From the NCBI GenBank assembly GCA_034506255.1, contig JAPDPX010000004.1:248001-312000 (forward strand): a stretch of DNA of 64,000 nucleotides. Direction: 5' to 3'. Source of the DNA: a candidate division KSB1 bacterium. GTDB lineage: Bacteria > Zhuqueibacterota > Zhuqueibacteria > Zhuqueibacterales > Zhuqueibacteraceae. Shown here piece by piece: positions 53,501 to 59,304 of the stretch (the first letter of the stretch is position 1; the number at the start of each line of letters is the position of its first letter). The notes beneath the pieces were generated by a model that was given only the letters and a program-made list of their open reading frames with translations, searched no databases and was not told the DNA's origin. Both the position numbers and the translations under genes were made by a program.

Positions 53501-53740
53501 GAGCTTGCGGAACGCGTCCTCCAGCGCCTCGCCGGGTAGGGCGGGATTGAGTCGCGCCAGCGCATCGCGCAGCCGCTGCGCCAGGACTACCTCGCCGTAA
53601 CTTTCCCTTTCTCGCAGGGAGAGGGGCAGGGTGAGGGTATCGCCAGCAGGCGATATGTCTGGGCCATGCGCGACCCGCCAGCCGATGGCTTCCAGCCAGG
53701 CGAGGGCCGCTTGCTCGACAACGGATTCCGAGACACTCAC
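50579..53740 (-). CDS. hsdR: Type I restriction enzyme, subunit R
   Basis: 1053 aa. The N-terminal nuclease domain has [20 protein letters not shown] (Asp...Glu-x-Lys). The helicase motor has Walker [33 protein letters not shown] (DEAH), [13 protein letters not shown] and [20 protein letters not shown]. The C-terminal helical region (about residues 800-1053) should dock HsdM. All motifs look intact, so the enzyme is predicted active. The GTG start at 53740 overlaps the stop of the four-helix-bundle gene (GTGA). The N-terminal stretch [18 protein letters not shown] looks like a translated CCTCACCC/CCCTCTCCC palindromic repeat. Confidence 0.95.
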
Positions 53741-54297
53741 TGGAGACCTCTCTGTTTCTGCCGGTGGTTGTACAGCCGTTCTGTAAAACCACCCTCCTTC
53801 AAAAATTGCTCCTCTAACGACTTAAGTTGCCTGCCCAAAAGATAACTTGCTTGATTGATCAGGCAAATGATGGTGTTCGCAGCAACCTCGGGTTCAGCGG
53901 TGGAAATGCCATAAGGGTCCGTCGTGCCTGACAAGTCGGACTTGTCCGACGAGTAACGTTTTCTGACTTTCAATGCTTCTGGTGAATCCTTGTGCCACAA
54001 CCGCAACCCCCGCTGCCGCAAGAAGTCCTGGTAGTCAAGCAGCAGCTCTTCAAGGCTCGCTCTTGCAACACCTGTAAGTTTTAGTTCCATTTTCTTGGAA
54101 GTTGCCGATGCCATGCTTCCTTCGGCAATGTTCTGCACTCCGCTTCTCGCAGCTTGCACCATCTGATCGTGCGTGCGGGAGCGTTTGTCGATGAAGCGGT
54201 TGCAAAAGATAACTGTGGCATCATACACCTGTTGCGCAGTTTGGAAGCTGCGCAAGTTCCTGTATCCACCATGCTTTGGAATGATTTTTCCCGTCAT
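53737..54297 (-). CDS. Four-helix-bundle protein with C-terminal extension
   Basis: 186 aa. The N-terminal 120 residues fit the four-helix-bundle family first met as 23S rRNA intervening-sequence proteins: [38 protein letters not shown] with the hallmark NIAEG, and [14 protein letters not shown]-terminal helical suffix of about 65 residues ([20 protein letters not shown]) makes it longer than usual. It is fused into the operon by ATGA overlaps with hsdS upstream and hsdR downstream, so it is made stoichiometrically with the restriction complex. Its role there is unknown. There is no reverse transcriptase nearby, so an Avd-like retroelement role is unsupported. Confidence 0.8.
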
Positions 54298-55529
54298 AAC
54301 CCCCTCTTCTTCAAAAACCGTTCTGCATCCTTCACCCGCAGCTCGCCGGAGATGAGCTTGGGGAGCAGCGCGTCGCGCAGGGCGGCGAGAGTGCGGGATT
54401 CGTGAATGCTGGCGATGATCCGGTCAACCGACGGCCGCACGACATTGGTGAAAGCCTTGGCCACGGGTGCAGGTGGAAGCGCGAACTCGTAGCGAGCCAT
54501 TTCAGCCCAGCTGGTGCGCGGCATTTTTGTGCCAGTCGAGCCAGCGTTTGCATACTCGACGAACTCCCTGCTCGACACATGACCGAGGACGAACCCGAAC
54601 CAGCGGCTGTCTTTCGGAGCCACAACGACAATGTCGGTCGAGCAGACGCCATCGACCGGCGCGACGCCGACCTTGTGGAAGTAGGGCCGGAGCTTCCCGA
54701 ACAAGATCTCGCCCCGCTTGAACTCGAACTTGTTGCTCTCGAGTCCATCGCCGGTAGCCCAATCCGAAAGCGCAATACATCGTTTCGGCATGTGCTCAAG
54801 TGCGATGTACGGCATCTCGGGATTGATCTGGCTTGGCCGCACGCTACGTCGAGGGTGCTCGGCGACATCGCCTAGAGTCCCTGTCACCCACCCCTCCGGA
54901 ATCTCGCCGAGTTCGGAGGGGACGAGGCGGGCGGGGAAGAGCTCGTAGAGGTGGGCGGGCAGGCCGGGGAGCGTCTGGCCCTTGCGCCAGCGCCCGTCCA
55001 TTTTGGCGCGGACGGGGTCGAAGTCCACGAACCACGACTTGAAGAGCGTCCGCGCCATGGCCTCCAGCGTCTCGCTCATCCGCCGGTTCAGTTCGATCTT
55101 GTCGTCCAGCGTGCCGAGGATGTGGGCGATGGCGAGTTGCTCGGCAGGTTCCGGAACCGAAGCAGGAATACGGCTGAGGATATCCTGATTCAGCAGCGGC
55201 TGCCCCGAACCAGCTCTCCAGTTATTAAGGTCGAGCGTGCTTAGCAGATAGAAAAGGAATCTTGCATCGTTGTTGCCCAGAGCAGTGGCGCGAATCGCGT
55301 TATCTGTCACCCAGCAGCGTTGCTTGCTGAAGAAAAGCGAACCGCAGTAACTACCCACTCGCCCAATGATGATTGAGCCTTCGTCAGCATTGGCTTCGGC
55401 TGCATGTCCAATTACTCCGTTGGAGCCATAGACAGGATAAGGCAATCCATCTGCGCGCTCAGGGCTTGAGCGACCATTCGCGAAAGACATTAGTTGGCCA
55501 AGCACCGTCTCCCGCCACTCATCCGCCAT
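54294..55529 (-). CDS. hsdS: Type I restriction enzyme, specificity subunit S
   Basis: 411 aa with two target-recognition domains. The first spans residues about 1-150 (MADEWRETVLGQLMSFANGR to PLLNQDILSRIPASVPEPAE), followed by a central conserved helix region QLAIAHILGTLDDKIELNRR. The second domain (LGEIPEGWVTGTLGDVAEHP to FVEYANAGSTGTKM) is followed by the distal helix. It binds the bipartite DNA target for both HsdM and HsdR; the sequence recognised cannot be read from the protein. The ATG is inside the 3' end of the 33-aa ORF upstream, and the stop overlaps the four-helix-bundle gene. Confidence 0.93.
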   Translation of the reverse strand: MADEWRETVLGQLMSFANGRSSPERADGLPYPVYGSNGVIGHAAEANADEGSIIIGRVGSYCGSLFFSKQRCWVTDNAIRATALGNNDARFLFYLLSTLDLNNWRAGSGQPLLNQDILSRIPASVPEPAEQLAIAHILGTLDDKIELNRRMSETLEAMARTLFKSWFVDFDPVRAKMDGRWRKGQTLPGLPAHLYELFPARLVPSELGEIPEGWVTGTLGDVAEHPRRSVRPSQINPEMPYIALEHMPKRCIALSDWATGDGLESNKFEFKRGEILFGKLRPYFHKVGVAPVDGVCSTDIVVVAPKDSRWFGFVLGHVSSREFVEYANAGSTGTKMPRTSWAEMARYEFALPPAPVAKAFTNVVRPSVDRIIASIHESRTLAALRDALLPKLISGELRVKDAERFLKKRGL

Positions 55530-57566: not shown

Positions 57567-57643
57567 GGCCTCAAAAAATCTCCATGTTCAACGGTGCGTT
57601 TACTATGAAGGCAGCCTTCCTCTGTAGTAAACGATGATTTCAT
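57563..57643 (-). CDS. 26-aa coupling ORF between hsdM and fic
   Basis: ATGA overlap with the hsdM stop (57640-57643) and ATGA overlap with the fic start (57563-57566). The product ([20 protein letters not shown] and six more residues) matches nothing I know. The two perfect overlaps suggest it is translated, at least to carry ribosomes from hsdM to fic. Confidence 0.5.
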
Positions 57644-59304
57644 AAGAAGCCCAGCTCCTTCAGGTTTTTCGCGATGGCGGCATCGAGCTTCGCGGCCTCG
57701 GCCTGCTGCGCGCGCAGCGTCGCGGTGAGCCGCTTCATCTTCTCCTCGAACGGCTCGCCGTCGTCCTCCTTGGCCTCGGGGCCCACGTAGCGGCCGGGGG
57801 TGAGCACATGGCCGTGCTTGCGGATCTCGTCGAGCGTCGCGCTCTTGCAGAAGCCGGGCACATCGGCGTATTCGCCCGCGTCCTTCTCGCCGCGCCAGGC
57901 GTGGTAAGTGTTGGCGATGCGGGCAATGTCCTCGTCGGTGAGTTCCCGGTGGGTGCGGTCCACCATGCGGCCGAGCTTGCGGGCGTCGATGAAGAGCACC
58001 TGGCCGCGGCGGTCGCGGAACTTGCCGTTCTTGCGGTCGCGCGCGAGGAACCAGAGGCACGCCGGGATCTGCGTCGAGTAGAAGAGCTGACCCGGCAGCG
58101 CGACCATGCAGTCCACCAAGTCGGCCTCGATCAGGTTCTTGCGGATCTCGCCCTCGCCGGACTGGTTCGACGACATCGAGCCGTTGGCGAGCACGAAGCC
58201 GGCCACGCCCGCGGGCGCGAGGTGGTGCACGATGTGCTGCACCCAGGCGAAGTTCGCGTTGCCGGCCGGCGGCATGCCGTACTTCCAGCGCTTGTCGTCG
58301 CGCAGGCGCTCGCCGCCCCAGTCGGAGACGTTGAACGGGGGATTGGCGAGGATGAAGTCGGCCTTGAGGTCCGGGAAGCGGTCGTTGTAAAAGGTGTCGC
58401 CGTGGGCGATCTGGCCGTCGATGCCGCGGATGGCGAGGTTCATCTTGGCGAGCCGCCAGGTGGTGTAGTTCGACTCCTGGCCGTAGATTGAAATGTCGGG
58501 CTTCGAGCCCTTGGGAGTCTTGCCGCCATTGCCGTTGCCGCTGGCATGCGCGCGGATGAACTCCACCGACTGCACGAACATGCCCGACGAGCCGCAGCAG
58601 GGGTCGTACACCCGGCCGTGGTAAGGCTCGAGCATCTCGACCAGGAGCTTGACCACACAGCGGGGGGTGTAGAACTCGCCGCCCTTCTTGCCCTCGGCGC
58701 TCGCGAACTGTGAGAGGAAGTACTCATAGACACGCCCCAGCAAATCGTGGGCGTGTCTACCCTCACCCCCAGCCCCTCTCCCAGTGGGAGAGGGGTGGCT
58801 GTCAAGCCGGGGTGAGCGTTGATCTGATCGAAAATCGAGATTTGAGATCAGATCAATGAGCTGGCCGAGCCGCTGCTTGTCGAGGGCGGGGCGGGCGTAG
58901 TCCTTGGGCAGCACGCCCTTCAACGCCGGGTTGTCGCGTTCGATGCCAGCCATGGCATCGTCCACGAGCTGGCCGATGGTGGGCTGGCGGGCCTGCGCCT
59001 TGAGGTGCGCCCAGCGCGCCTCGGGCGGCACCCAGAAGATGTTGTGCGCGCGGTACTCATCGGGGTCCTCGGGGTCGGCGCCTTCGGCGCGTTCGGCCTC
59101 GAGCTTGCGGTGCTGCTCCTCGAAGGCGTCCGAGATGTACTTGAGGAAGATGAGGCCGAGGACGACGTGCTTGTACTCGGCCGCATCCATGCTGCCGCGC
59201 AGCGCGTCGGCCATTTTCCAGAGTTCGGCTTCGTAGCCGACGGTGGCGCCGCTGGTTGCAGCAGGCTGGTGGTTGTTTTTGCGTCTGGCCAAGCGTTCCC
59301 TCAC
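57640..59304 (-). CDS. hsdM: Type I restriction-modification enzyme, methyltransferase subunit M
   Basis: 554 aa. The N-terminal helical domain has [20 protein letters not shown]. The methyltransferase has [20 protein letters not shown], motif [16 protein letters not shown] and catalytic motif [13 protein letters not shown] (NPPF, an N6-adenine enzyme). An in-frame insertion (about residues 168-190, [13 protein letters not shown]) lies just before the [14 protein letters not shown] segment and corresponds to a perfect 11-bp palindrome at 58773-58795. The GTG start at 59304 overlaps the stop of the kinase gene by four bases; no stronger start is seen. It protects the host target and with HsdS and HsdR forms the restriction complex. 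Confidence 0.95.
58773..58795. repeat. Palindromic intergenic-type repeat translated inside hsdM
   Basis: CCCCTCTCCCA at 58773-58783 and its exact complement at 58785-58795, preceded by ACCCTCACCCCCAGC. Similar CCCTCTCC hairpins occur at 6911-6942 (intergenic) and, degraded, at about 53605-53640 inside hsdR. Confidence 0.75.

Follow-up and report, generated by a model that had tools for sequence, protein, structure and literature searches.

Copies of hsd gene 3' ends as joints, and putative translational relays, behind defence genes embedded in type I restriction operons

How do foreign genes come to be housed within a type I restriction-modification operon, and how do the hsd genes which they separate remain coupled? 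In EcoKI, for example, hsdM and hsdS are translationally coupled (PMC3510504). The question is raised here by an operon on the minus strand of a 64,000-nucleotide stretch of DNA from a candidate division KSB1 bacterium (contig JAPDPX010000004.1, positions 248,001 to 312,000), this whole stretch being referred to below as the window. Gene order is hsdM, fic, a winged-helix-like gene, hsdS, a four-helix-bundle gene, and hsdR. The hsdM, hsdS, and hsdR genes possess their respective Pfam domains and form one operon, that is, a type I system, and the other, non-hsd genes lie inside that operon on the same strand with overlapping junctions, i.e., as embedded accessory genes, here ‘cargo’. An earlier note on this sequence proposed that cargo genes enter, in an ordered manner, at the hsdM 3' end by recombination which regenerates the junction between the hsdM ‘tail’ and the next gene, such that co-translation with hsdS is never lost. 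The core of that idea is largely supported, and hsdM-tail relics located behind cargo are both real and general.

The final approximately 22 codons of the window hsdM are tail copy 1. Tails 2 and 3 end tiny open reading frames (ORFs) found after fic and after the winged-helix gene, respectively, as the earlier note had described. As peptides, each pair of the three tails scores above all of 5000 shuffles. As DNA, tails 1 and 2 are 81% identical over 48 bp, and tails 1 and 3 are identical over 17 of 17 bp, with in both cases none of 2000 dinucleotide shuffles reaching the score. The repetition of DNA thus holds for these two pairs, and not for tails 2 and 3 (score reached by 74 of 2000 dinucleotide shuffles). 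Although tail 3 spans just 14 codons, it scores 13.7 bits with the hidden Markov model (HMM) of the tail that is described below, for which 1 Mb of control sequence yields nothing at 10 bits or above. The tail/cargo segment of the window has no other match anywhere in its own 6-Mb genome. Successive genes overlap by 4 nt (fic and relic ORF 2), 8 nt (relic ORF 2 and the winged-helix gene), 4 nt (the winged-helix gene and relic ORF 3), and 11 nt (relic ORF 3 and hsdS), with the stop of each relic ORF overlapping the next gene start and with Shine-Dalgarno sequences of GGAGGAG at 56302-56308 and AAGGAG at 55537-55542. These are the overlap lengths originally claimed. The hsdM and fic genes do not themselves touch, being bridged by a 26-aa ORF.

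Relatives of hsdM were collected across many phyla and reduced to 197 distinct loci, i.e., 78 in which hsdS immediately follows hsdM, 96 with intervening genes, and 23 without a recognizable hsdS. These loci are mostly from metagenome-assembled genomes, with related cassettes counted more than once, and locus coordinates (following L numbers) are counted relative to the hsdM stop/end. The tail HMM was trained on the 78 cargo-free loci alone and scanned in all six frames, with matches of at least 10 bits counted here. (For HsdS, the HMM used is one rebuilt from the C-terminal motif, as AlbA-like cargo had contaminated an initial version.) Across 153 kb of hsdM-hsdS intervals there are 41 such matches on the coding strand compared with none on the other strand, and the 1,011 kb downstream of hsdS likewise lack any (p of about 8e-37 by length). 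This enrichment is seen in the first sample (19 versus 0) and again in a later, independent sample (21 versus 0), so hsdM-tail ORFs indeed follow cargo in other genomes far above chance, and the refutation that the earlier note had envisaged, a lack of such enrichment, is not borne out. Arrays of two relics occur in eight loci (the window, L017, L024, L043, L054, L125, L134, and L144). Cargo classes include Fic, AlbA_2/Schlafen-like ATPases, and DUF1016/YhcG PDDEXK nucleases, along with ORF6N, IrrE-like plus DUF4411 PIN, and HepT/MNT pairs.

What does the tail carry? Within cargo-free operons the AAGGAG and start of hsdS are found inside the final hsdM codons (..AAC CTG AAG GAG CTG GGG TATGGCGGGTGA), with stop and start overlapping, and the consensus of this canonical junction is AACCTGAAGGAGCT.GGGTATGGCGGGTGAG. 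It is, that is, an EcoKI-like junction, with a stop/start overlap and with the Shine-Dalgarno sequence found in the upstream gene. Within cargo loci, relics place this same signal before hsdS or instead before the next cargo gene. Indeed, with only the 30 nt upstream of the start considered, 17 of 74 cargo loci outscore the best of 861 control windows. Relics usually span about 14 to 30 codons, and in some other cargo loci the tail has eroded down to a Shine-Dalgarno sequence and start.

From a different perspective, the ‘tail’ might not be a relic of hsdM at all but instead the one-frame translation of a Shine-Dalgarno sequence followed by a conserved hsdS start (AAGGAG..GGTATGGCGGGTGA reads KELGYGG), i.e., convergence. 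Several short relics (L004, L010, L038, L049, L056, L076, and L164) do hold little beyond the Shine-Dalgarno sequence and the LGYG/MAGEW overlap. Full relics, however, run for 20 to 36 codons in the same frame, and to the 48-bp match of window tails 1 and 2 may be added 14 module pairs with DNA homology starting 59 to 79 bp upstream of the hsdM stop, as well as exact runs of 20 to 42 bp which relics have in common with other hsdM tails. For most loci the long relics refute convergence, which as a general account is quite unlikely.

The relic also is more than a ribosome-binding site. For 22 of 23 relics the frame stays open back across the stop of the cargo gene, over gaps of up to 170 bp. Where cargo ends in RTGA, 17 of 20 relics are in the frame which starts on that stop (p = 2.8e-6), and within cargo-to-tail gaps the relic frame has 2 stops versus 27 and 8 in the other two frames. 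An open, RTGA-matched frame is what a termination-reinitiation relay needs, and the retention of stop/start overlaps between relic ORFs and cargo is sequence evidence for the retained coupling that the earlier note had posited. Relic ORFs thus look like translational relays, presumably translated, which may set the level of HsdS. Coupling nevertheless can be kept otherwise. Some cargo proteins themselves end in the tail (L023, L164, and L167), and in the HEPN/MNT class the MNT appears to be fused to HsdS, with the relic mostly absent; the relay therefore is only one of several ways of keeping coupling. In the latter class, 26 loci (e.g., L037, L071, L073, and L176) possess an MNT nucleotidyltransferase domain apparently fused to the HsdS N terminus, with a HEPN/NTase_sub_bind gene immediately upstream of the fusion. 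This looks like a toxin-antitoxin pair, the NTase half of which would be part of the specificity subunit.

Might the peptides themselves be what matters, acting in trans by, for example, competing with the HsdM C-terminal tail in M2S or R2M2S assembly? Many tail residues are kept in the relic peptides, and the HsdM C terminus is near the HsdS N terminus in a model of EcoKI (PMC3510504). Relic lengths vary, however, eroding to the Shine-Dalgarno sequence, the leader part is unrelated sequence, and a few relics are fused to cargo (L003, L023, and L164). Trans-acting peptides would seem to be extremely unlikely.

Comparison of loci by blastn, with positions relative to the hsdM stop, yields 37 pairs in which one locus possesses, as an internal module, what in the other is the hsdM tail plus the gene downstream of it. 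These modules start from -79 to -1, with none among the 37 starting further up hsdM, i.e., they start 1 to 79 bp before the hsdM stop, consistent with the claim that joints regenerate the junction of tail and next gene. For example, L222 -75..1314 equals L144 3093-4503 at 92%, and since the hsdM genes of these two loci are only 81% alike, the piece found behind fic in L144 appears to have been joined at the tail. Likewise, -68..697 of the cargo-free L034 equals L019 1836-2608, that is, the L019 relic and hsdS, and L014 -64..1236 equals L024 1730-3009. Window -66..1243 (tail plus fic) equals L144 1746-3055, there a relic plus fic behind an AlbA-like gene, and the last window relic plus hsdS equals a block of L013 that is found behind different cargo (92% over 670 bp). 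Two pairs of loci, L042/L046 and L039/L056, show modules swapped immediately behind fic, with about 90% DNA identity across hsdM and fic as far as the fic stop and with differing sequence directly after it. For most pairs hsdS is unrelated (about 35 to 50%), even with fic and hsdM 70 to 97% alike. In L039, positions 1191-1290, located behind fic, match sequence which in L016 flanks the AlbA-like cargo on its 3' side (82% over 68 bp), as though fic had there taken the place of such a gene.

Modules that join within the final 79 bp of hsdM, relic left ends that often are near QQAEA codons, and variable modular order all could be expected as well of a cassette moved by a site-specific recombinase or transposase, with the relic a target-site or att-site duplication in the manner of integrons or integrative elements. 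Integrative elements are known to integrate at gene 3' ends, with those ends restored. The relic left ends, however, provide no constant recombination-site boundary, ranging from HMM position 1 to 37, and most relics are closer to the hsdM tails of other loci than to the resident tail, with exact shared runs of up to 42 bp. Against their own tails, relics mostly show an identity of 0.56 to 0.84 over HMM-aligned codons, rather than forming identical flanking duplications. Target-site duplication of the resident tail accordingly is rejected for most loci. A defined insertion site likewise is not supported, and the joining of pieces from different loci provides a better fit than would insertion in one step with duplication of the target. 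No recombinase is present among operon genes or representative cargo proteins, with one elsewhere in the genome not excluded, and tails of hsdS, as considered below, play the same part. A mobile cassette we consider to be unlikely.

Some relics are in-locus duplicates (L073, 92% to its own hsdM; L141, 90%). Such relics, plus longer ones in L047, L073, L139, L142, L161, and L172, and tandem 128-bp repeats in L218, instead could be debris of tandem loci, i.e., what deletion has left of a second hsdM (its 3' end) along with hsdS, the tail itself playing no particular part. That would leave unexplained the RTGA frame match and open frames, the presence of a relic after each cargo in arrays (the window, L017, L024, L054, and L144), and retention of the Shine-Dalgarno sequence despite upstream erosion; as the general explanation it is very unlikely. 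The L218 repeats, at 1780-2360, are three to four tandem hsdM 3'-end copies with a period of about 128 bp and with hairpin repeats, but without cargo.

The claim that capture is ordered is not supported. Cargo order varies, with fic first in the window and second in L144 and with DUF1016 either first or second. Nor is the relic nearest hsdS regularly the more eroded, as it should be were the newest cargo found beside hsdM: the lower-scoring relic is near hsdS in five of the eight two-relic arrays and the reverse is seen in three. Entry also is not restricted to hsdM. With an HMM of the hsdS tail, relics (RDALLPKLISGELRVKDAERF) are found behind cargo of the hsdS-hsdR interval, all on the coding strand, in L171, L144, L222, L010, L061, L045, L036, and L190, with an ATGA overlap with the next gene in several. 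L171 possesses three in a row (4401-4466, 5469-5558, and 6759-6833), the stop of each overlapping the next ATG. Some hsdS-tail matches (L078, L141, and L182) look like merely split hsdS genes.

A number of points weigh against tails as joints and relays, or limit that reading. A relic of at least 10 bits is present in 30 of 94 cargo loci and lacking from the other 64, including from the HEPN/MNT-HsdS fusion class; the tail ORF behind cargo therefore is common rather than universal. In two Deinococcus isolate-plasmid loci with DUF1016 cargo, overlaps are kept and the relic is absent. Within the fic and AlbA classes some of the relics share ancestry, such that loci cannot be counted as wholly independent events, and for relics of less than about 10 codons convergence may apply. 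Among compared loci there is no near-identical pair with versus without cargo, and when closest donors were compared for imported tail-plus-hsdS pairs most hsdS matches were too distant. Lastly, codon-position differences (97/94/177 in relics versus 682/629/1429 in hsdM tails) do not prove selection on the peptide.

How then might these operons have been assembled? The anatomy, the enrichment, the bias in frame and overlap, and the sharing of modules with homology beginning in the tail are all observed, and it is probable that the hsdM-hsdS interval is a modular, tail-jointed array with relay ORFs. A module would pair a cargo gene with a copied hsdM 3' end, the latter eroding down to a Shine-Dalgarno sequence and start. 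Cargo arriving between hsdM and hsdS would be retained if joined within the hsdM tail, since the tail thereby displaced still provides the translation start signal of the next gene. The relic would then be kept as a small relay ORF, with ribosomes restarting at the cargo stop (RTGA), translating the tail, and restarting on the next gene. As every such locus carries several 60- to 75-bp tail copies, recombination between the tails of different type I loci could pile up cargo and hsdS modules, change their order, or substitute one for another. The joints would seem to be best explained by recombination of this kind, accompanied at times by local duplication, the joins presumably being made by homologous (RecA-type) or occasionally illegitimate recombination. 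A broader version, in which 3' ends of hsd genes are general docking joints at which active, recurring recombination loads, stacks, and swaps defence genes across phyla, with relay ORFs having evolved to hold HsdS and HsdR output constant regardless of the insert, is offered only tentatively, and we doubt it in that full form.

Features of the window operon are presented in Table 1.

Table 1. Genes, tail copies, and small ORFs of the type I operon, in order of transcription (positions within the window)
Feature	Position	Strand	Length	Remarks
hsdM	57640..59304	-	554 aa	HsdM_N + N6_Mtase; Pfam PF12161 2e-29, PF02384 5e-109
Tail 1	57655..57702	-	48 bp	part matching tail 2; AAGGAG at 57655-57660
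Bridging ORF	57563..57643	-	26 aa	bridges hsdM stop and fic start; ATGA (4-nt) overlap at each end
fic (cargo)	56388..57566	-	392 aa	SoFic-like; Fic_N + Fic (Pfam); PADLOC SoFic 5e-125
Relic/relay ORF 2	56287..56391	-	34 aa	ATGA start on fic stop; ends in hsdM tail
Winged-helix-like gene (cargo)	55617..56294	-	225 aa	weak PADLOC match to PDC-M14B (candidate family)
Relic/relay ORF 3	55519..55620	-	33 aa	ATGA start on winged-helix gene stop; ends in hsdM tail ATIAANLKELGYGG
hsdS	54294..55529	-	411 aa	canonical start MADEW within tail; Pfam Methylase_S 3e-22
Four-helix-bundle/S23-like gene (cargo)	53737..54297	-		between hsdS and hsdR; TIGR04258 9e-23, TIGR02436; PF05635 weak
hsdR	50579..53740	-	1053 aa	Pfam HSDR_N, SWI2_SNF2, T1RH-like_C

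The 26-aa bridging ORF was considered as a possible hsdS remnant, which was rejected as it is located in the fic leader, with the inverted repeat GTTTACTA..TAGTAAAC, and as other fic loci do not retain it as an ORF. Palindromes such as TAAACGCAGCGTTTA are seen in the leader between tail and fic in the window (57563-57643) and in L054, L076, L144, and L204, and likely serve the fic module as operator or promoter. The PADLOC SoFic profile covers residues 21-385 of the window Fic, i.e., full length, at 5.4e-125. The NCBIfam equivalog cut-off for protein adenylyltransferase SoFic, however, is missed (165.9 versus 550 bits), so the window Fic would be a protein related to SoFic rather than a strict ortholog, linked to defence by homology only. 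For the winged-helix-like protein no Pfam, NCBIfam, or plasmid relative was found and no convincing PDB relative. The four-helix-bundle gene overlaps both of its neighbours by 4 nt, has no relative among phage records, and in the hsdS-tail scan has no relic behind it. Inverted repeats of the CCCTCACCCCCAGCCCCTCTCCC type, resembling repetitive extragenic palindromes (REPs), are found apparently in frame within the window hsdM (58755-58800) and also near the hsdR 5' end (53600-53640).

That defence genes can be embedded in type I operons has been established previously: PrrC is embedded in EcoprrI (PMC12707154), DarTG2 between hsdS and hsdR, a site termed a potential recombination hotspot (PMC12255303), and TgvAB within a Vibrio type I operon (PMC11411939). 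These loci resemble those considered here in having accessory defence genes inside an hsd operon and differ in that most cargo studied here lies between hsdM and hsdS; no mention was found in those papers of hsd-tail relics, relay ORFs, or tail-anchored joints. Nor did searches of open-access literature turn up a description of hsd-tail relics serving as joints and relays. The start/stop overlap logic is that of the native EcoKI hsdM-hsdS junction, and duplication of the HsdM tail into hsdS has been proposed for type IB evolution (PMC3510504), whereas the tail copies considered here form small ORFs of their own behind inserted genes and are not fused into HsdS. As with integron cassette arrays, there is one short repeat copy per module and modules can be stacked in variable order; unlike integrons, no integrase is seen here and there is no fixed site, the repeat instead being coding sequence from the 3' end of hsdM or hsdS, in which the following gene has its ribosome-binding site. 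Shuffling of hsdS and target-recognition domains (discussed in PMC3510504) similarly exchanges modules by recombination between type I loci, but here exchange takes place at the 3' end of hsdM or hsdS and involves non-hsd cargo.

Defence genes gather in restriction operons, and tail joints are a concrete answer to how they may enter without wrecking hsd genes that are balanced and coupled. An hsdM or hsdS 3' end located behind a foreign gene thus would be a simple signature both for finding inserted defence genes and for reading the history of their assembly. Viewing tails as joints also predicts that the level of HsdS would depend on tiny ORFs, ones which annotation usually skips.

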